Shown: in pieces, positions 3,339 through 61,568 of the stretch
Position numbering within the stretch: the first letter of the stretch is position 1
How the letters are laid out: each line of letters starts with the position of its first letter
Source: Bryobacterales bacterium
GTDB taxonomy: Bacteria > Acidobacteriota > Terriglobia > Bryobacterales > UBA6623
Direction of reading: 5' to 3'
NCBI GenBank assembly: GCA_026713545.1
Contig: JAPOOG010000083.1
Span: 1 to 64,000, forward strand
DNA length: 64,000 nt
Made by a program: the position numbers and the translations under genes
Notes under the pieces: model-generated
Told to the model about the DNA's origin: nothing
The model's input: the letters and a program-made list of their open reading frames with translations, nothing else
The model's database searches: none

Positions 3339-3994
3339 CAGTCTTGAAGTATGGCGGGAAACTGGGATTGATCCTGTTGGCCGGTCTGTTGAGCACACCG
3401 CCGGTGACTGCGCAGCAGCGCGAGCACCCCCCCGCGAACACGTCAGAGTCCTCATCGCAAAGCGGGAAGCAATCATCCGAGGCGAAGGAATCGTCGTCCC
3501 GGACAGTGAAGCGCGCTTCGGACGAACGGTCGCAATCGTCAGCCCTGAGTAGTGTCCTGAAACTCCTCAAGGAAGCAGAACGCGATCCGGGGCCTGCTAT
3601 CCAGATCGAGGAAAGAGGAGACACGATCATCTTCAAACGTCCTACGCCCTTCGGACTCATGACATGGACGAAGAAGCGTTCCGAGTTGACGCCCAAGGAG
3701 CAGGAAATACTGCGCGCGCACCAGGTCCGGCAAGCTCAGGACGAGCCGGATGAACAGCAGGAGTCTTCGGCCGAAGCCGTTGCGGCTCCCGTGGAGGCGC
3801 GGCAAGGCGGGCAAGCTCAGGACGAGCCGGATGAACAGCAGGAGCCTTCGGCCGAAACCGCTGCGGCTCCCGTGGAGGCGCAACAAGGCGGGCAAGCTCA
3901 GGACGAGCCGGATGAACAGCAGGAGCCTTCGGAGGAAGCCGCTGCGGCTCCCGTGGAAGAGCGACAGACTGACGCGAACGACGACCAGCGATAG
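3335..3994 (+). CDS. Exported protein of unknown function with three 27-residue repeats
   Basis: A 219-residue product is read from the ATG that overlaps the preceding stop (ATGA); a longer frame from 3317 is less likely. A signal peptide covers residues 1-28 (KLGLILLAGLLSTPPVTAQQ). A Ser-rich linker is followed by a short conserved-looking segment at about residues 75-125 (SVLKLLKEAERDPGPAIQIE, then GLMTWTKKRSELTPKEQ). The C-terminal third is an acidic tandem repeat of 27 residues containing QAQDEPDEQQEPSAE and AAAPVEA. I do not recognise the family. Lying between the GspC-like gene and the secretin suggests a periplasmic accessory of the secretion system, but that is context only. Confidence 0.6.
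   Translation: MTVLKYGGKLGLILLAGLLSTPPVTAQQREHPPANTSESSSQSGKQSSEAKESSSRTVKRASDERSQSSALSSVLKLLKEAERDPGPAIQIEERGDTIIFKRPTPFGLMTWTKKRSELTPKEQEILRAHQVRQAQDEPDEQQESSAEAVAAPVEARQGGQAQDEPDEQQEPSAETAAAPVEAQQGGQAQDEPDEQQEPSEEAAAAPVEERQTDANDDQR
3731..3973 (+). repeat. Three tandem 81-bp coding repeats
   Basis: Units starting CAAGCTCAGGACGAGCCGGA begin at 3731, 3812 and 3893, an exact 81-base period. The reading frame is preserved, giving the 27-residue repeat of the exported protein. The third copy diverges towards its end. Such near-identical units can change in number by slippage or recombination. Confidence 0.9.
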
Positions 3995-4021: not shown

Positions 4022-6415
4022 ATGCATAAAGCCGTCTTTTCCATTCTGTTGATCCCGCTGCTGCTGTTGGGTCAGCAGCCTCGGCCCGCGACTCCAGCGG
4101 CCCAAGAGGCAGACGCAGCGGCGCCGCAACAGGCACCGGCCGAGGCCGACCGGGAGCCGGCTCGACCGCGGGCTCGATCCGCCGGTCCGCAGGCTCCGTC
4201 TCAGCAACAGCCCGCTCCGGCGGATCGGCCGCCGCCCCGGTTGCAGTCCGACGGGGCCTCGGCGGTTCGCTTCAGCAATCTGCGCCAAGCCGACCTGTTG
4301 GAAGTAGTCGACCTCATTGCTCGTCGGCTCGACATGAACTACATCCTCGATCCGGGCCTGGAGAGCGGAGTCGTTTCGATCAACACCTACGGCGAACTCA
4401 CTACCGACGACCTGTTGCCCCTGCTCGAAACGATCCTTCGGATGAATGGAGCGTCCGCGGTGAAGGTCGGCAAGTTCTACAGGATCTCCCCGTCGGGTGA
4501 GATTCCGCGGCTGCCGATTTCGCCTCAAACCGATCCCGACGCGGAGATCTCTGACGACGAACGGATGATCCTGAATGTCATCCGCCTGCGCTACACGACG
4601 GCGTCGGACATTGCCGTCGTACTCGAGCCGTTCCTCGGGCCGGGCGCGCTCGTTCAAGTCGTCGAGCAGGGCAACCTGCTGCTCATCCTGGACAACAGCC
4701 GTAACATGGGCCGCACCATGGAACTGATCGCATTGTTCGATGCCGAAGAGATGACCTCGCAGCGGATGCGGCTCTTCCCCGTCGAGAACAGCCTGGCGTC
4801 AACGATAGCGAGCGATCTGTCGCGGATCTTCGATGCCTTGTTGTTTGCGGAAACGCAGCCCGGCATCCAATTCCTGCCGATCGAACGGATCAGCTCCGTG
4901 CTGGTCGTATCGGGCAATCCCTCGGTGTTTGACAAAGTCGAAGAGTGGATCGAGAAGCTCGATCAGCCAATGGCGGCAGGAGGCGTCCAGACGTTTGTCT
5001 ATCGCGTTCAATACGGTCTTGCCGGCCAACTGGCGCAGACCCTGTTGATGCTCTACAGCCCTGCCTTCGGCTTCGCCGGCGGCTACGGCGGTTACGGTGG
5101 CTATGGTGGTTACGGCGGCGGCTATGGTGGCTACGGCGGCGGCTATGGTGGCTACGGCGGCGGCTACGGCGGCTATGGTGTTGGCGGTTACGGTGGCTAT
5201 GGTGGTTACGGCGGCGGCTATGGCGGGGGGGGGCTCGGACTCGGAGGTCGCGGCTACGGTGGCTACCCGGGAGCGAGCGGTCGAGGTGCAGGCGCGATGG
5301 GCGGCCTCGGTCCCGGCGGGTTCGGAGGTCGCGGCTACGGCGGTTACGGCGGCTACGGTCGCGGCATGGGCGGCGGTTTTATTCAACTCCCGACCGGCAT
5401 GGCGCCCGGCGGGCCCGCTGCGCTGGGTGTCCCGCAACCGCAGCCGGGCGCCACCGATCAAACCGGCGAGATCTTGAGGGCTCCCACCGCCGATCCACTG
5501 TCGCAAGCCTACGCGGACGCCATTCGGATCGTCCCGGACGAAGTGAATAATCTGATCCTCGTGCAGGCGACGAAGCAGGAGTGGGAGATTATCCACAAGA
5601 CTCTCCAACAATTGGATTTCCCGCCTCGCCAAGTCTTGATCGACGCGAAGATCTACGAGGTGGCGATGGAGGGCGCCTTCTCGAGCGGTGTCTCCGCAAT
5701 GCTGCGCAACAAGGGCAATACCGACCTCTCGACACGCAAGCTCAGCGGTGGTTTTGACTCCGCCGGGCAACTCAATCTCACTCTCGGGGCGCTTGTCGGA
5801 AACACGCGGGAGCTGGCGGCGATTCTCAATGCGACTCAAACGGATGGACGCAGCCGCATCATCTCCGCCCCGTCAGTCATCGCCACCGACAACATCCCGG
5901 CTTCGATTACCGTGGGCGCATCGATCCCGACCCTGTCCTCGCAAGCCCTGGCGTCCGGGGCGCAACAGGATGGCTCTTCTCTATTCACGAACACCGTGAC
6001 CAACGTGCAAACCGGCGTTACTCTTTCGATCACGCCTCGCGTAAACGCCTCGGGAATCGTGACGCTGATGATCAACCAGGAAGTGAGCGTGCCGCTGCCG
6101 GTCAGCGGAGCCATCGCCTCGCCCAGCATCGAACGTCGCAACGTCAGCACGCAAATCACGATGGCCGATGGCGACACGGTGGCCATTGGAGGCATCATGT
6201 CGGAAACCGACCTCTACTCCCGGAGCCGGGTGCCGCTGCTCGGAAAAGTCCCCATTCTGGGCGGTCTCTTCGGATCCACGAGTTCTTCGAAGAAAAAGAC
6301 GGAACTCATCATCCTGATCACGCCCCGAGTCATCTACGACGAGAACGAGTTCGTCACGATGAGCAACGAGCTCAAAAGCCGCCTGCGGTCCGTACGGCGT
6401 GTGATGCGGGAATAG
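4022..6415 (+). CDS. gspD: Outer-membrane secretin (GspD/PilQ family) with a Gly/Tyr-rich insertion
   Basis: A 797-residue protein: signal peptide (residues 1 to about 20), Pro/Ala/Gln-rich linker, then N0 and N1-type domains starting VRFSNLRQADLLEVVDLIAR. A 100-residue GGY-repeat insertion spans residues 353-452. It interrupts an N-domain: YGLAGQLAQTLLMLY lies before it and ADAIRIVPDEVNNLILVQATKQEWEIIHKTLQQLD after it. The C-terminal secretin domain has the family signatures TDGRSRIISAPSVIATDN, SLSITPRVNASGIVTLMINQEV and SRSRVPLLGKVPILGGLFGS. It forms the multimeric gate through which folded substrates, or a pilus, leave the cell. It closes the operon starting with gspK, 27 bases after the preceding gene. 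Whether the system is strictly type II or a pilus-like hybrid is unclear, because the PilM-PilN fusion and missing PDZ blur the distinction. Confidence 0.93.
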   Translation: MHKAVFSILLIPLLLLGQQPRPATPAAQEADAAAPQQAPAEADREPARPRARSAGPQAPSQQQPAPADRPPPRLQSDGASAVRFSNLRQADLLEVVDLIARRLDMNYILDPGLESGVVSINTYGELTTDDLLPLLETILRMNGASAVKVGKFYRISPSGEIPRLPISPQTDPDAEISDDERMILNVIRLRYTTASDIAVVLEPFLGPGALVQVVEQGNLLLILDNSRNMGRTMELIALFDAEEMTSQRMRLFPVENSLASTIASDLSRIFDALLFAETQPGIQFLPIERISSVLVVSGNPSVFDKVEEWIEKLDQPMAAGGVQTFVYRVQYGLAGQLAQTLLMLYSPAFGFAGGYGGYGGYGGYGGGYGGYGGGYGGYGGGYGGYGVGGYGGYGGYGGGYGGGGLGLGGRGYGGYPGASGRGAGAMGGLGPGGFGGRGYGGYGGYGRGMGGGFIQLPTGMAPGGPAALGVPQPQPGATDQTGEILRAPTADPLSQAYADAIRIVPDEVNNLILVQATKQEWEIIHKTLQQLDFPPRQVLIDAKIYEVAMEGAFSSGVSAMLRNKGNTDLSTRKLSGGFDSAGQLNLTLGALVGNTRELAAILNATQTDGRSRIISAPSVIATDNIPASITVGASIPTLSSQALASGAQQDGSSLFTNTVTNVQTGVTLSITPRVNASGIVTLMINQEVSVPLPVSGAIASPSIERRNVSTQITMADGDTVAIGGIMSETDLYSRSRVPLLGKVPILGGLFGSTSSSKKKTELIILITPRVIYDENEFVTMSNELKSRLRSVRRVMRE
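5078..5377 (+). repeat. GGY/GYG low-complexity repeat inside the secretin gene
   Basis: About 300 bases of GGCTATGGTGGCTACGGCGGC-like units encode a Gly/Tyr-rich stretch of 100 residues. The units are imperfect, with period 9, 12 or 21 bases, and end with a GRG-containing part. The opposite-strand and out-of-phase open frames here are by-products of the repeat. Confidence 0.9.
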
Positions 6416-34674: not shown

Positions 34675-34858
34675 CTAGCCTGCTTTTCTCACCACCCGAC
34701 GGTCGAAGCACGCGATACGACCGCCATGACTTCGTTGCTCTTGCTTGCCGTGCTCGACGTACTGTCAAGTACGCCTGCGCGCGCCAAGCAGCGCGCGCCT
34801 CGTCCTGACGGTCCTCTCACGCACTTCACCTCGCCGCGTGGTGAGAAAGGCAGGCTAG
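34675..34858. mobile_element. Element A: 184-bp TIR element (MITE/REP-like)
   Basis: It lies between CCTGCTTTTCTCACCAC (34679-34695) and GTGGTGAGAAAGGCAGG (34838-34854), which are inverted repeats with one mismatch, flanked by CTAG on both sides. Inside, CGTAC/GTACG (34758-34773) and a GC-rich hairpin around 34775-34799 are present. There is no coding capacity for a transposase. It fills the gap between the convergent M48 and dehydrogenase genes, and its last CTAG contains the stop codon of the latter. Confidence 0.8.
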
Positions 34859-41964: not shown

Positions 41965-42140
41965 CCTGCATTTCTCACCACCCGACGGCCGAAGCACGCA
42001 ATACGACCGCCATGACTTCGTTGCGCTTGCTTGCCGTGCTCGATGTACTGTGAAGTACGCCTGCGCGCGCCAAGCGGCGCAAGCCTCGTACTGACGGCCC
42101 TCTCACGCACTTCGCCTCGCCGCGTGGTGAGAAATACAGG
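41965..42140. mobile_element. Element B: 176-bp TIR element
   Basis: CCTGCATTTCTCACCAC (41965-41981) and GTGGTGAGAAATACAGG (42124-42140) are near-perfect inverted repeats. The interior matches element A over nearly all its length, with the hairpin GTAC...GTAC and the GC-rich hairpin. It lies in the divergent gap between the SelA-like gene (start 41937) and hyuA (start 42260), so it may carry or alter their promoters. Confidence 0.8.
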
Positions 42141-48981: not shown

Positions 48982-50457
48982 TCAGGCGGTTGCTTCCGCC
49001 GGCGAGTTGTAAACCGGGTTGTCGATCAAGTCGGGCACGACTTCGCCACCGGTCACCGTTGCGTCGGTCGGCGTTTGCTCACGGCCTTCGTGAAGGTATG
49101 TCAATTTCTTGTGATCAATGCCCAACTGATGAAAGATCGTCGCTTGCAGGCTCGGGACGCTCACCCGATTGGCTGTCGACTTGTAGCCGAATTCATCGGT
49201 CTCCCCGTAGGTGAGTCCTTTTTTGAACCCTCCGCCCGCGAGCCACAAGCTGAACGCATGCCGGTTGTGGTCGCGGCCGTCCGAGTTCTGCGTCGTCGGG
49301 AGGCGCCCGAATTCCCCGGCCCACATGATGATCGTGCTGTCGAGCAGTCCGCGGGACTTGAGATCCTTGAGCAGAGCGACGGTGGGTTTGTCGGTTCGTG
49401 CGCAGACCTTCGGCAATCGAGTAGCCAGCTCACCGTGGTGGTCCCAAATCTGTCCCTGGCCCGGGAAGATCTGCACGAACCGAACGCCGGCCTCGACCAG
49501 TCTGCGGGCCATCAAACAGCGGGTTCCGTAGCTTGCGGTGATGTCATCGTCGAGGCCGTAAGCCTTGCGGGTGGCCTCCGACTCTTTCGAGAGGTCCAAC
49601 ACCTCCGTGGCCGCCAACTGCATCCCGGCGGCCATCTCGTAGTTCTGGATGCGCGCTTCCAGCTCAGACTCTCCCGGATGGTTGCGGAGATGTTCGGCGT
49701 TCAGCTTCGACAGGAAATCCAAGCTCTCCCGCTGCACACCCGGAGGTCTTGGATCTACCGGGCTCAGGTGATGCACCGGGGTTCCGGTCGAGCTGAATTC
49801 CACCCCTTGATACAGAGCCGGCAGAAAACCGCTCGACCAAACGAGCTTACCGCTGGTGCTGTAGCCTTCCGGATCGCGCAGAACGACATAAGCCGGCAGG
49901 TTCTGGTTCTCGCTGCCCAGGGCGTAGGTGATCCAGGCGCCCATGACCGGCCGGCCCGGGAAGATGTTGCACGTCTGGAGCATGTGCAACCCTTCCGGGT
50001 GATTGTTGTGCTCGGTATACATCGAGCGGATGAGGCACATCTCATCCACCTGGGTGGCCTGGTGGGGCAGGATATCCGCCAGCGTCATTCCCGATTCGCC
50101 GTGCTGGCGGAAGTCGAACGGGCTCGGCATCAAGACGTTATCGTTGTTCGGCTGATGGATCTCGACGCCGTCCGGATGCGGTTGACCGGCGCGCCGGTCA
50201 AGCTCGGGTTTGGGATCGAACAGATCCATCTGGCTCGGCCCGCCGTTCTGGCAGAACTGAATGACGGCCTTCGCCCGAGCCGGGAAGTGCCCCTTGCGCG
50301 GTTCGAGATCGTTGTAGACAGGAGTCGCCGCCCGCAACGATTCCGTTTCCACGAGCCCGGCCAGCGCCAGGCTGCCGAAGCCCAGACCGGTCATCTCGAG
50401 CAGTCTGCGCCGTGAGAGCGTCGGTCCCGTTCCAGCGAGCAATGTGCGGTTCGGCAT
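48982..50457 (-). CDS. DUF1501 protein, Tat-exported, partner of the PSD1 gene
   Basis: A 491-residue protein from ATG 50457 (MPNRTLLAGTGPTLSRRRLL); a TTG at 50475 would add six residues. The Tat motif SRRRLLEMTGLGFGSLALAG precedes DUF1501 signatures: QFCQNGGPSQMDLFDPKPEL, TSGKLVWSSGFLPALYQGVE, MWAGEFGRLPTTQNSDGRDHN. Similar to the protein at 7436-8869, but clearly diverged. It lies upstream of PSD1 in the same transcript, the usual pairing in Acidobacteriota and Planctomycetota. Confidence 0.92.
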   Translation of the reverse strand: MPNRTLLAGTGPTLSRRRLLEMTGLGFGSLALAGLVETESLRAATPVYNDLEPRKGHFPARAKAVIQFCQNGGPSQMDLFDPKPELDRRAGQPHPDGVEIHQPNNDNVLMPSPFDFRQHGESGMTLADILPHQATQVDEMCLIRSMYTEHNNHPEGLHMLQTCNIFPGRPVMGAWITYALGSENQNLPAYVVLRDPEGYSTSGKLVWSSGFLPALYQGVEFSSTGTPVHHLSPVDPRPPGVQRESLDFLSKLNAEHLRNHPGESELEARIQNYEMAAGMQLAATEVLDLSKESEATRKAYGLDDDITASYGTRCLMARRLVEAGVRFVQIFPGQGQIWDHHGELATRLPKVCARTDKPTVALLKDLKSRGLLDSTIIMWAGEFGRLPTTQNSDGRDHNRHAFSLWLAGGGFKKGLTYGETDEFGYKSTANRVSVPSLQATIFHQLGIDHKKLTYLHEGREQTPTDATVTGGEVVPDLIDNPVYNSPAEATA

Positions 50458-50759
50458 GAAAACCTTCTCAGACAAGTCTATTGTCGACTAGTGCGCCGGG
50501 TTTGCAACTCTCCGGATACGACTCGATTATACGCACGTACCAGCGCGGTGAAAAGCAGTCGACACTGTTTGTCAACACAATAGAGAACGTACCCCTTTCG
50601 CGGCATGGATTCACTTGGCGTTCGCCGCAGCGGAAGCAGCCCGGAGGGCGACGGGAACTGCGCGGCGAAAGGCGCTTGTCGTGAGGCCCAACGAGAACGG
50701 CTGACGGGGCGCTGACATTGACTCAGAGGCAATATTTCTTACCGAGCAATTCCGGGCAA

Positions 50760-51840
50760 TCGTGAGCAGGGAAGCAGTGGCGTGGCGGCAAGAAAGCCGC
50801 GCCATGCAGCGCGAAGGGGGGGCAGACAAGCCGTAACTGGGCGGCGGGTGTGTCGGTCCTGGCGGCGTTTTTTTGTGGTGCGACCCTTTCGCACCCACGG
50901 TGAACCGAACGGACATAAAGTCCGTGATTCGTGTCTCGTGAAAACCCAACAGGCCGTGTTGCTGGTGCGGACGGTGCGCGGACAGCGGCTCGGGGCGCCT
51001 CCCCCAAAAAAATACTGAACAATAGCGAACAATGGCGAACAATAGTGAACAGGGCAGCAATGACCGGGCAATAAGATTGCCAGGCGACCGGACGCAGGGA
51101 AACAGTGACCGGGCGGTGGTTTTTCGAGATGCGACCCTTTCGTTCCCATGGCGACCCGAAGGGCCATAAAAGCCGTGATTCGTGTTTCGTGTTTCGTGTC
51201 TCGTGAAAACCATGGGCGCGGCCTGGTTCGCTCCAGAAAGATAATGTCCGACGGCCGGTGAACCGCAAAGGCCGTGAATCGTGTTTCGTGCAAAACCTTA
51301 CCGGCCGAGTTGCCGGCGCGGGCGGCTCGCGGCTCGTCCCGCCGGACCTCTCCCGCACTTCGCATCGCCACTTGATGAGACGTTCGGGTCAGGATTCCGG
51401 CCTTTCTGTCCTCATGCTACGCAGGCCGCGGCGGAAAAAAAAGACTGAAGGGCTTCAGTACCCCAGTGCAACGATTCGACAAAAACATAAAAGCCGTGAT
51501 TCGTGTCTCGTGATTCGTGATTCGTGAAAAACCGTTGGCCGCGGCTTGCGGTTGCTCTACCAGGAAACGCCGGCGGGCTGGTGAACATTCCTTTCGTTGG
51601 CGCCACGGATCAGGCATCACGGGACATGAGAAACAGCTCTTCACTCCTGATGCCATGCCGGCCGGGGCGGAAAAAAAGACTGAAGGGCTTCAGTACCCAA
51701 ATGCAGCGATTCGTATCTCGTGTTTCGTGACTCGTGATTCGCGAAAAACCTTGCAGGCGGTAATGCCGGCGCGGGCGGCTCGCGCCTCGCCCTGACGGCC
51801 CCCTCACGCACTTCGTCTTGCCACGTGGTGAGATATGCAG
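50760..51840. repeat. Cluster E: array of period-7 (TTTCGTG) repeats and TIR-element modules
   Basis: The 1.6-kb gap between the DUF1501 and SDR genes is mostly repeat. Tracts with unit (A/T)TTCGTG, for example at 50924-50940, 51175-51207, 51274-51290, 51496-51526 and 51708-51746, each end in GAAAACC-like sequence. Long direct repeats recur: CGACCCTTTCG at 50881 and 51132 (251 bases apart), and GACTGAAGGGCTTCAGTACC near 51443 and 51677. The right end, GTGGTGAGATATGCAG (51825-51840), is that of elements A-D. A GAACAATAGC-like period-10 tract lies at 51018-51051. Long open frames (ETRNTKHE-type peptides) here are artefacts. Confidence 0.8.
51443..51690. repeat. Duplicated hairpin segment CTGAAGGGCTTCAG within cluster E
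   Basis: A segment containing the perfect hairpin CTGAAG/CTTCAG, preceded by GGCGGAAAAAAA, occurs at about 51434-51480 and again at about 51667-51713, with about 90% identity by eye over some 45 bases. It is one of the shared modules of the array. Confidence 0.6.
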
Positions 51841-52069
51841 TCTGGTTTTCCTCCGCCGTGCGCGGGTCATTCAAGCTGAATACATCCGGGCCGGTATCAA
51901 CGCCGCTTGATCCGGGAGATGTTTCAGGTCAGCCGAAGGGAGACGTTCCGCCTAGCTCACCAGACTTCCGCCATTACGCCGACACGCGGCGCAACTCTGC
52001 TGCGTTAGCAGGGCGCCGCTTGCTAGCATGAACCTCTTTTTGCGTAGACCGGTTGATCGGGAGGGAGCT

Positions 52070-52849
52070 TTGACTTTGGAATCGATGTTCTCGCTCATGG
52101 GGAAGAAGGCGCTGATTGCCGGCGCCAGCCGGGGGATCGGGCTGGCGATCGCCAAGGCCACGGCGGGCGCGGGGGCGAATACAGTTCTCGCGGCGCGTTC
52201 GCTGGAGGCGCTCGAAAGGGAGGCGGCCGCACTGCGGGATCAGGGCTATCAGGCCGACACGGCGCCACTCGACATCACCTCGCACGAGTCGATCGATTCG
52301 CTGGCCGCGGATCACGGCGATGCGGACATCCTGGTGAACGTCGCGGGCACCAATATCCGCAAGCCGTTCGAACAGTACACGCAGGACGATTACAACCACA
52401 TCATGGAAACGAACCTGCACGGCATCGTCCGCTTGACGCAGAAAGCAGGCGGCCTGATGATCGAGCGCGGTCGAGGCGGCAAAGTCGTCCACATCGGAAG
52501 TCTGATGTCAGTGCTGGGACTACCGTATCTTTCGGTCTACGCGATGACGAAGAGCGCGCTGGCCGGGCTGACGCGGGTGCTGGCGGCGGAGTGGGCGAAG
52601 TTCGACATTCAGGTCAATTGCATTGCGCCGGGGTTCATCCTGACGGACCTCAACCGGCACATGTGGCAACCTCCCGAAATGGCCGAGTGGCTCAAGGGAG
52701 CGCAGCCGAACCGTCGCTTGGGTACGCCGGAGGACATCGCCGGCCTGTCGGTTTTTCTGGCGAGCCCGGCGGCGAACTACATCACCGGCCAGGTGATCGC
52801 GTCGGACGGAGGGTACACGACCACGGCGAATTGGCCCTTCCAGCCTTGA
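52070..52849 (+). CDS. Short-chain dehydrogenase/reductase (KduD/gluconate dehydrogenase-like)
   Basis: A 259-residue NAD(P)-dependent oxidoreductase. Motifs: ALIAGASRGIGLAIAKATAG (cofactor), VNVAGTNIRKPF, YLSVYAMTKSALAGLTRVLA (Tyr-x3-Lys) and DGGYTTTANWPF at the end. The start is a choice: TTG 52070 has GGGAGGGAG just upstream; ATG 52085 or 52097 are also possible; ATG 52028 would add 14 unneeded residues. The family oxidises or reduces sugar acids and sugar alcohols. Its stop lies in the left terminal repeat of element F. Confidence 0.88.
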   Translation: MTLESMFSLMGKKALIAGASRGIGLAIAKATAGAGANTVLAARSLEALEREAAALRDQGYQADTAPLDITSHESIDSLAADHGDADILVNVAGTNIRKPFEQYTQDDYNHIMETNLHGIVRLTQKAGGLMIERGRGGKVVHIGSLMSVLGLPYLSVYAMTKSALAGLTRVLAAEWAKFDIQVNCIAPGFILTDLNRHMWQPPEMAEWLKGAQPNRRLGTPEDIAGLSVFLASPAANYITGQVIASDGGYTTTANWPFQP

Positions 52850-53194
52850 CAGCCCGTGGTGAAAGTCACGCGGGCGGCGTTACGCGCCTTGGGGTCGATT
52901 GCGTAACGTGTGGCTGCTCCAGTAACGCAGCAGCGCGCTCTCCGCGCAGCCGGCGCGGGCGGCGCGTAACCCGTTGGGCGACGGACATTTTTTTGTTCCA
53001 ACGGCGGCTCCGAGCTTGCTGCCTTGCGTGACCACGGAGGAGACCGCCTAAGGTCGCCGGCTTTGTCGTTCGCTTTTTCCTTCGCGAGGAGGAGATCACC
53101 CGGATCGCCATCCTCCTCACTCCGCGCCGAGCCACCGCAGGAGCCCGCCGCGCTCTTTCCTTCGTGCCACGGGACTTTCACCACGGACTGTTAA
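52846..53194. mobile_element. Element F: 349-bp element with 22-bp terminal inverted repeats
   Basis: Left end 52846-52867 and right end 53173-53194 are inverted copies with 20 of 22 matching bases, sharing CCGTGGTGAAAGTC. The interior has inverted GCGTTACGCGCC / GGCGCGTAAC segments and a CCGGCGCGGGCGGC module also found in cluster E, but its ends differ from elements A-D. It spans exactly the gap between the convergent SDR and GarR-like genes; the left end overlaps the SDR stop, the right end is 1 base from the other stop codon. No transposase frame. Confidence 0.65.
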
Positions 53195-54056: not shown

Positions 54057-54189
54057 GGTCATCTCCTCTCGCGGCGACCACGCCGCTGAACCACAGTATC
54101 CGAAAGACAACGACTGGAATCCAGACGGCTTGCCGCCAAGGCTGCTGAAGCATGAGCGTCAGGACGGCGGCAAGAGAGATAATGCCCGC

Positions 54190-56012: not shown

Positions 56013-56199
56013 CCTGCATTTCTCACCACCCGACGGCCGAAGCACGCAATATGGCCGCCATGACTTCGCTTTTCCTTCGCAACGCTTGCTTGCCGTGCTC
56101 GATGTACCTTCAAGTACACCTGCGCGCGCCAAGCGGCGCGCGCCTCGTCCTGACGGTCCTCTCACGCACTTCGCCTCGCCACGTGCTGAGAAATGCAGG
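56013..56199. mobile_element. Element C: 187-bp TIR element
   Basis: CCTGCATTTCTCACCAC (56013-56029) and GTGCTGAGAAATGCAGG (56183-56199) are near-perfect inverted repeats. Inside are TGTAC/GTACA (56103-56118) and a hairpin CGCGCGCC-AAGC-GGCGCGCG (56123-56142). Against element A the first stem changed from CGTAC/GTACG, a compensatory pair. It lies between the convergent hydrolase-like and NtrC genes. Confidence 0.8.
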
Positions 56200-61299: not shown

Positions 61300-61568
61300 C
61301 CTGCATTTCTCACCAACTGACGGTCGCAGCACGCGATGAAAAGGCCGTATTTCGTGTTTCGTGTCTCGTGATTCGTGAAAACCAAGGGCGGGAGCCTGGT
61401 TCGCTCCAGAAGAAATGTCTGACGGCCGGTGAACCGGAAAGGCCGTATTTCGTGAGCCGAGGGGTGAAGGAGGCGATATAGCCGTTCGACCTGCGCGCGC
61501 CAGGCGGCTCGCGCCTCGTCCTGACGGCCCTCCCAACACTTCGCCTCGCCACGTGGTGAGAAATGCAG
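61300..61568. mobile_element. Element D: 269-bp TIR element carrying a period-7 tract
   Basis: CCTGCATTTCTCACCAA (61300-61316) and GTGGTGAGAAATGCAG (61553-61568) are the ends of elements A-C. The interior differs: it carries a TTTCGTG-type tract (61348-61378) and a module at 61387-61455 (GCCTGGTTCGCTCCAGAA, GACGGCCGGTGAACCG) matching cluster E at 51214-51280. It links the two repeat types. Located between the divergent kinase and GWxTD genes. Confidence 0.8.

Follow-up and report, generated by a model that had tools for sequence, protein, structure and literature searches.

Heptanucleotide tracts as internal cassettes of a probably IS1380-related MITE family in Bryobacterales

The heptanucleotide tracts of a repeat array in a Bryobacterales genome are internal cassettes of a MITE family, here called F1. 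Two congeners differ in which orthologous sites hold an F1 copy, heptad-bearing copies among them. The array is an accumulation of such MITEs, not a new type of genetic system. In all probability it is a composite of decayed, nested small mobile elements with a WYTCGTG cassette core, F1 being a non-autonomous MITE moved by an IS1380 transposase.

The window, the whole stretch of 64,000 nucleotides analysed here, is G000:C102:1-64000, from an assembly (G000) of 5.6 Mb in 170 contigs. It was compared with the same-genus MAG Bryobacterales bacterium RHO3_bin_12 (G001; Acidobacteriota; its contig C18 is identical to JAPPLB010000099.1), to which it aligns at ~90-96% identity, as well as with a third congener (G002) and three family-level relatives (G008, G009, and G013). 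Elements and tracts were surveyed in 1.24 Mb of G000 and 1.33 Mb of G001, taken as stretches, and genes for the placement counts came from a simple coding-score gene model. An Rfam search at gathering thresholds returned a tRNA as the sole match.

The copy-depth profile is repetitive from ~50570 to 51932 and single-copy beyond, which replaces the 1.1 kb (50760-51840) that the earlier note had allotted to the array. This repetitive block lies between two divergent genes and is composed as follows (the flanking ORFs are from the ORF list and the coding-score model).

48982-50475, minus strand: left flanking ORF, transcribed away from the array
50570-51932, plus strand: composite repeat array, delimited by copy depth, that holds heptad cassettes, a decamer run, remains of F1, and the ends of other repeats
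50920-50940, plus strand: heptad tract 1, GTCCGTG ATTCGTG TCTCGTG, then AAAACCC
50929-51012, plus strand: 84 bp that match the terminus of G000 contig C11 without a difference, a recombination or mis-join point
51171-51205, plus strand: heptad tract 2, five units, then AAAACCAT
51277-51290, plus strand: heptad tract 3, two units, then CAAAACCT
51492-51526, plus strand: heptad tract 4, five units, then AAAAACCG
51709-51743, plus strand: heptad tract 5, five units (some altered), then AAAAACCT
51825-51840, minus strand: F1 terminal inverted repeat, right end, GTGGTGAGATATGCAG, one mismatch
51863-51932, plus strand: third repeat type, ~70 bp, ending GATGTTTCAGGTCAG
52028-52849, plus strand: right flanking ORF, short-chain dehydrogenase-like by eye only

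Several tracts of heptamers had been described in the array, and five are indeed present within 50920-51743; a sixth tract of the window lies at 61350-61377. Matches to WTTCGTGWTTCGTG with at most two mismatches number 18 in the window, against 1.8 ± 1.4 in shuffled sequence. The unit had been given as (A/T)TTCGTG. Its heptameric nature stands, while unit counts favour the spelling WYTCGTG: almost every unit in tracts of three or more is ATTCGTG, TTTCGTG, TCTCGTG, or ACTCGTG. An A run and then CC come after each of the six window tracts. The GAAAACC-like ending attributed to every tract takes the form AAAACC, AAAAACC, or CAAAACC after all five tracts of the array, and AAAA follows the tract in 52 of 69 and 50 of 72 tracts in the wider survey. 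The whole G000 genome contains 193 two-unit heptad matches and none of the reversed pattern, and 131 tracts of two to six units occur in the 1.24 Mb surveyed. A frequent tract form is AAAGGCCGTG-ATTCGTG-TTTCGTG-TCTCGTG-ATTCGTG-AAAACC. With 7-bp units arranged head to tail in variable number, the tracts are heptanucleotide simple-sequence repeats. Furthermore, three of the four alignable orthologous tracts in shared F1 copies differ between genomes by complete units, two of them by one heptad and the third by two, the pattern expected of slippage, though from four tracts.

Between the tracts the array is irregular. Modules spaced at 251 bases had been proposed; one 83-nt pair (50858/51109, 81% identical) has this spacing, but other module pairs are spaced 235, 236, and 453 and there is no regular 251-bp period. 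Element ends were likewise said to be mixed into the array, and one F1 end is recognisable, that at 51825-51840. The ~70-bp repeat has a consensus hairpin, GAAACATCC/GGATGTTTC, and its end motif GATGTTTCAGGTCAG, matched 54 times in the G000 and G001 stretches, is often found beside F1 elements. A decamer tandem run, GAACAATAGC, occupies 51017-51051 with 3.5 copies.

F1 is a high-copy family with 17-bp inverted ends, CCTGCATTTCTCACCAC, of which the ends recognised earlier, CTGCATTTCTCACCAC, are a part, and with a YYRR tetramer outside the ends. The commonest form is ~175 bp long and free of heptads; heptad-bearing forms span ~150-590 bp. Adjacent pairs of F1 ends, 81 in 1.24 Mb, are mainly 150-320 bp apart and enclose non-coding DNA, the structure of a MITE. 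Four F1 elements of the window, outside the array, illustrate both forms.

34679-34854, plus strand: short F1 element without heptads
41965-42140, plus strand: short heptad-free F1 element; unoccupied in G001, where the site reads TTAG
56013-56199, plus strand: short F1 element without heptads; the orthologous G001 stretch is much shorter, with no F1 end visible
61300-61568, plus strand: heptad-bearing F1 element ("element D"); decayed form in G001
61350-61377, plus strand: four-unit heptad tract inside element D, then AAAACC

Element D was reported to hold a heptad tract within intact ends, and its four-unit tract is where that description places it. Such an arrangement is general. A correctly oriented F1 end lies near 50 of the 69 G000 tracts with at least three units, as compared with 7 of 69 random positions, and near 54 of 72 such tracts in G001, as compared with 15 random positions. 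Thus, the tracts of G000 are not a class that is never flanked by these ends, the finding that would have spoken against the earlier reading. Most end-bearing copies have their first heptad 48-50 bp in from the left F1 end. This fixed position, and the presence or absence of heptad-bearing elements as whole units, support the proposal that the tract is cargo or a variant core of the family.

The placement of F1 is strongly intergenic, with 4 of 98 copies inside genes versus 75% of random positions (coding-score gene model). Tandem, convergent, and divergent gaps are occupied about in proportion to their frequency, which makes it less likely that the copies are placed there to act as terminators or promoters. 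The short F1 consensus can be folded into a single long hairpin (-97.5 kcal/mol); a test for selection on the hairpin was weakly positive for a single strand, with 12 double changes against 3.1 ± 1.6 in shuffles, a count that ignores relatedness among copies and is given no weight here.

Evidence of movement comes from 23 filled/empty orthologous sites between G000 and G001, in both directions (22 + 1, read by hand). The polymorphic copies include heptad-bearing ones (e.g., 125, 238, 251, 264, 265, and 56), and a 225-bp G001 element with four heptads is missing at window position 54178. The 4-bp target at these sites is of the CTAG/YTRR type: the empty site has one YYRR-like tetramer and the filled site two. 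A flank equals the empty-site tetramer at 12 of the 23 sites, whereas shuffles give 4.5 ± 1.6 and none of 5,000 reaches 12. Both flanks agree with the empty site in four cases and one flank in eight more, the rest being different; the two flanking tetramers are equal to each other at five of the 23 sites. A 4-bp target duplication at F1 sites is therefore likely, with many copies lacking a clean one, since a clean duplication is seen for the IS copies described below and at four MITE sites only. An arrangement in which two bases are carried per end with no duplication was weighed against a plain 4-bp duplication, and neither fits every site. At ~30% of positions the flank tetramers are unlike the empty site, a divergence far higher than that of the surrounding DNA. 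The two tetramers of a copy likewise diverge from each other more than their surroundings do, and most of the changes are transitions that keep YYRR.

A candidate for the moving enzyme emerged from a search with DDE_Tnp_1: G001 carries a 1.72-kb IS in two intact copies. The encoded protein belongs to the IS1380 transposase family, scoring 385 bits with NF033539, whose curated cut-off is 180, and matching PF13701 as well. Both copies have perfect 4-bp duplications, CTAG|CCTGCATTTCTCACCAG...|CTAG and CTAA|CCCGCATTTCTCACCAG...|CTAA. This intact IS1380-family element possesses the outer 16 bp of F1 and the same target: of the 17 bp of the F1 end, its left end agrees at 16 and its right end at 13, with no significant similarity further in. 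Common ends and unlike interiors are what would be expected for a MITE and its parent IS. From the ends and target common to the two, we infer that an IS1380 transposase probably moves F1 in trans. Relatives of the IS in G008, G009, and G013 resemble it at their ends (CTCACCA, CTCACGA, or ATCACCA) and are flanked by duplicated CTAG or TTAG, and the F1 copies of G002 mostly end in CCCGCATTTCTCACCAC-like sequence, nearer to the IS1380 ends. In G000 the search for an intact IS1380 found broken pieces only, and an ORF search between distant F1 or F2 ends in the G000 and G001 stretches (F2 is a second family, described below) gave chance pairs only. One G001 IS1380 copy is inserted at CTAG in an F1 body, beside heptad cassettes. 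This is the one direct case of the self-targeting proposed in the earlier note; the accompanying idea that the array marks an insertion hot spot finds no support in the array itself, F1 filling intergenic space generally and the layout being confounded by a possible recombination or mis-join. The single-contig family-level relative G008:C1 carries more than 20 largely intact IS1380 copies but lacks any exact F1 end, so that IS1380 has expanded there with no accompanying burst of F1 MITEs.

In this context, we put forward the following course of events. An IS1380 transposase would recognise F1 ends in trans, by DDE transposition, and F1 would insert between genes at a 4-bp CTAG/YTRR target. Replication slippage inside the tract, to judge by four tracts, may then change the number of heptads, while insertion of element into element together with recombination could build arrays such as that at 50570-51932. 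No cellular function of the heptads would be needed.

The order of parts within this particular array is a separate matter. In G001 the left array flank (C24) leads on to other genes than in the window, and the right flank (C153) is bordered on its left by other DNA; in G000 these partners sit at the end of C11 and at the start of C168, each within such arrays. The identity of C11 to the window starts inside a heptad tract, giving a candidate switch point at 50929-50940. The layout reflects either an exchange of partners by recombination in heptad-bearing DNA or an assembly mis-join. We give even chances to the array as a unit being an assembly artefact, two arrays joined at a common repeat. 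The differing partners in G001 and the terminal 84 bp of C11 are in its favour; nevertheless, a homopolymer difference just past those 84 bp leaves no exact k-mer overlap, and a true exchange between two arrays would be expected to look similar. Since exchange and mis-join are not separable, the internal order of this array is provisional. The conclusions on the family rest on many other sites, and an artefact here would leave untouched an element family with hundreds of them.

Other explanations concern the elements themselves. The hairpin fold of F1, its numerous intergenic copies, and the Y1_Tnp genes of the congener G002 would suit repeats of the REP/REPIN type, moved via single-stranded hairpins by a RAYT or other Y1 (HUH) transposase. 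However, Y1_Tnp has no match in G000 and G001, the two genomes with the expansion, the target tetramer is found on either side of the oriented element, unlike the one-sided insertion of IS200/IS605, and an IS1380 element that is flanked by a 4-bp duplication has ends matching those of F1. The IS200/605 or RAYT reading was dropped on the first two of these grounds, and we consider it very improbable. Somewhat less improbable, but still unlikely, is that the tract is a functional array of protein- or RNA-binding sites under selection, for instance in the regulation of neighbouring genes, with F1 as a mere vehicle. The conservation of unit types and of the AAAA(A)CC tail in many copies could be so explained, heptads recur outside F1 in G002 and, among the matches listed, in many unrelated bacteria, and a regulatory role has been proposed for TAACTGA heptamers (PMC4679880). 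Yet the copies have no preference for divergent, tandem, or convergent gaps, tract length differs between orthologues, the tail is not common to other bacteria, and common ancestry of the copies by itself accounts for a conserved order of units. As for an integron attC-like or CRISPR-like array, the imperfect palindromes with CTAAC...GTTAG outer bases in some F1 copies might recall one, but the outer bases vary freely as YYRR (CTAG, CTGA, CCAG), without the invariant GTT of attC. The attC reading was rejected on this point, the defining GTT/AAC core of R'/R'' being missing. Moreover, the modules between tracts are unequal rather than unique spacers of constant size, and the copies are scattered through the genome rather than gathered in one array. 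We regard this origin as extremely remote, and an IS1380-moved MITE with a heptad cassette as the preferred account.

The expansion of F1 and of its heptads is restricted to the genus. Of the 61 relatives searched, only G000 and G001 are rich in F1 ends and heptads, with 277 and 670 exact F1 ends and 193 and 281 heptad pairs, respectively. G002 has seven heptad pairs and no exact F1 end, its F1 copies being 74-81% identical. No F1 end lies within 500 bp of five of the six tracts checked there, and the sixth has one marginal match with five mismatches. Beyond the genus, the pattern GTG(WYTCGTG)3 was found in at least 106 stretches from many phyla in 84,980 species genomes, against 0.12 expected in random sequence. 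An A-rich tail follows 3 of 104 stretches from other bacteria among the matches listed, and the flanks are unlike too. As flanks and tail are not common outside the genus, an independent origin of the heptads there is likely; and because heptads also exist without F1, the link to F1 is not the origin of the heptad. It is conceivable, if rather doubtful, that WYTCGTG-type tracts are an independent unit, recurring widely and generated in many bacteria by a single 7-bp copying process, and that the transposon captured such a tract in this genus, spreads a slippage-prone repeat, and seeds recombination hot spots. The tracts outside F1, in G002 and in unrelated bacteria, often stand beside other 7-bp units (GATTGGT, GATTCGG, AAGCGTG).

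The closest precedent for a tandem repeat within a MITE is BrickBuilt of Porphyromonas gingivalis (PMC4596501), which, like F1, is small, non-coding, and intergenic, with IS-like inverted ends and a variable internal tandem repeat. The BrickBuilt unit is 23 bp long and the element has 19 copies (PMC4596501), whereas the F1 unit is 7 bp and the copies are in the hundreds; the ends of BrickBuilt are nearest to ISPg1/ISPg9, those of F1 to an IS1380. Unlike BrickBuilt, F1 has its movement shown by filled/empty sites. F1 agrees with the G001 element of the IS1380 family itself (NF033539) in 16 of the 17 outermost bp at one end and in a 4-bp target, CTAG/CTAA/TTAG; it differs in having no transposase ORF and in its unrelated interior. 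REPs, REPINs, and BIMEs resemble F1 as high-copy, intergenic, palindromic mosaics. In contrast to these, F1 has hosts without a Y1/RAYT gene, and its ends and 4-bp target are common to a DDE-type IS.

In the literature, heptanucleotides are reported to outnumber other long simple repeats in most bacteria, with polymerase slippage as the suggested mechanism (PMC4679880, PMC4692102). The bacterial heptanucleotide repeats described previously (TAACTGA in Beggiatoaceae, PMC4679880; GGGAATC/GGGGAYT in Xanthomonas and Nostoc, PMC4692102) are, like the F1 heptads, intergenic, variable in number, and found in scattered phyla. The heptamers of PMC4692102 are reported to have, in general, no association with mobile elements, whereas most tracts here lie inside or beside a MITE and are copied along with it. 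Two usually separate things are thereby linked, heptanucleotide repeats, which have no agreed origin, riding on a MITE, the ordinary type of small mobile element. The system offers a same-genus genome pair, many filled/empty sites, an intact candidate transposase, and orthologous tracts in which slippage can be measured. F1 also breaks assemblies, and gene order in MAGs across such arrays needs caution.

A second MITE family, F2, with ends CAGTCCGTGGTGAAAGTC and the same kind of 4-bp YYRR target, is represented in the window directly after the right flanking ORF.

52850-53190, plus strand: F2 element with CAGTCCGTGGTGAAAGTC-like ends; absent in G001 (target TTGA; flanks TTGA/TTAA)

Composite F1-F2 elements also occur, and no transposase for F2 came to light. 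Elsewhere in the window, tandem repeats are found in a coding-looking region at 3729-3957 and 5069-5215 (81-bp unit, 2.8 copies; Gly/Tyr-type GGCTAC units).
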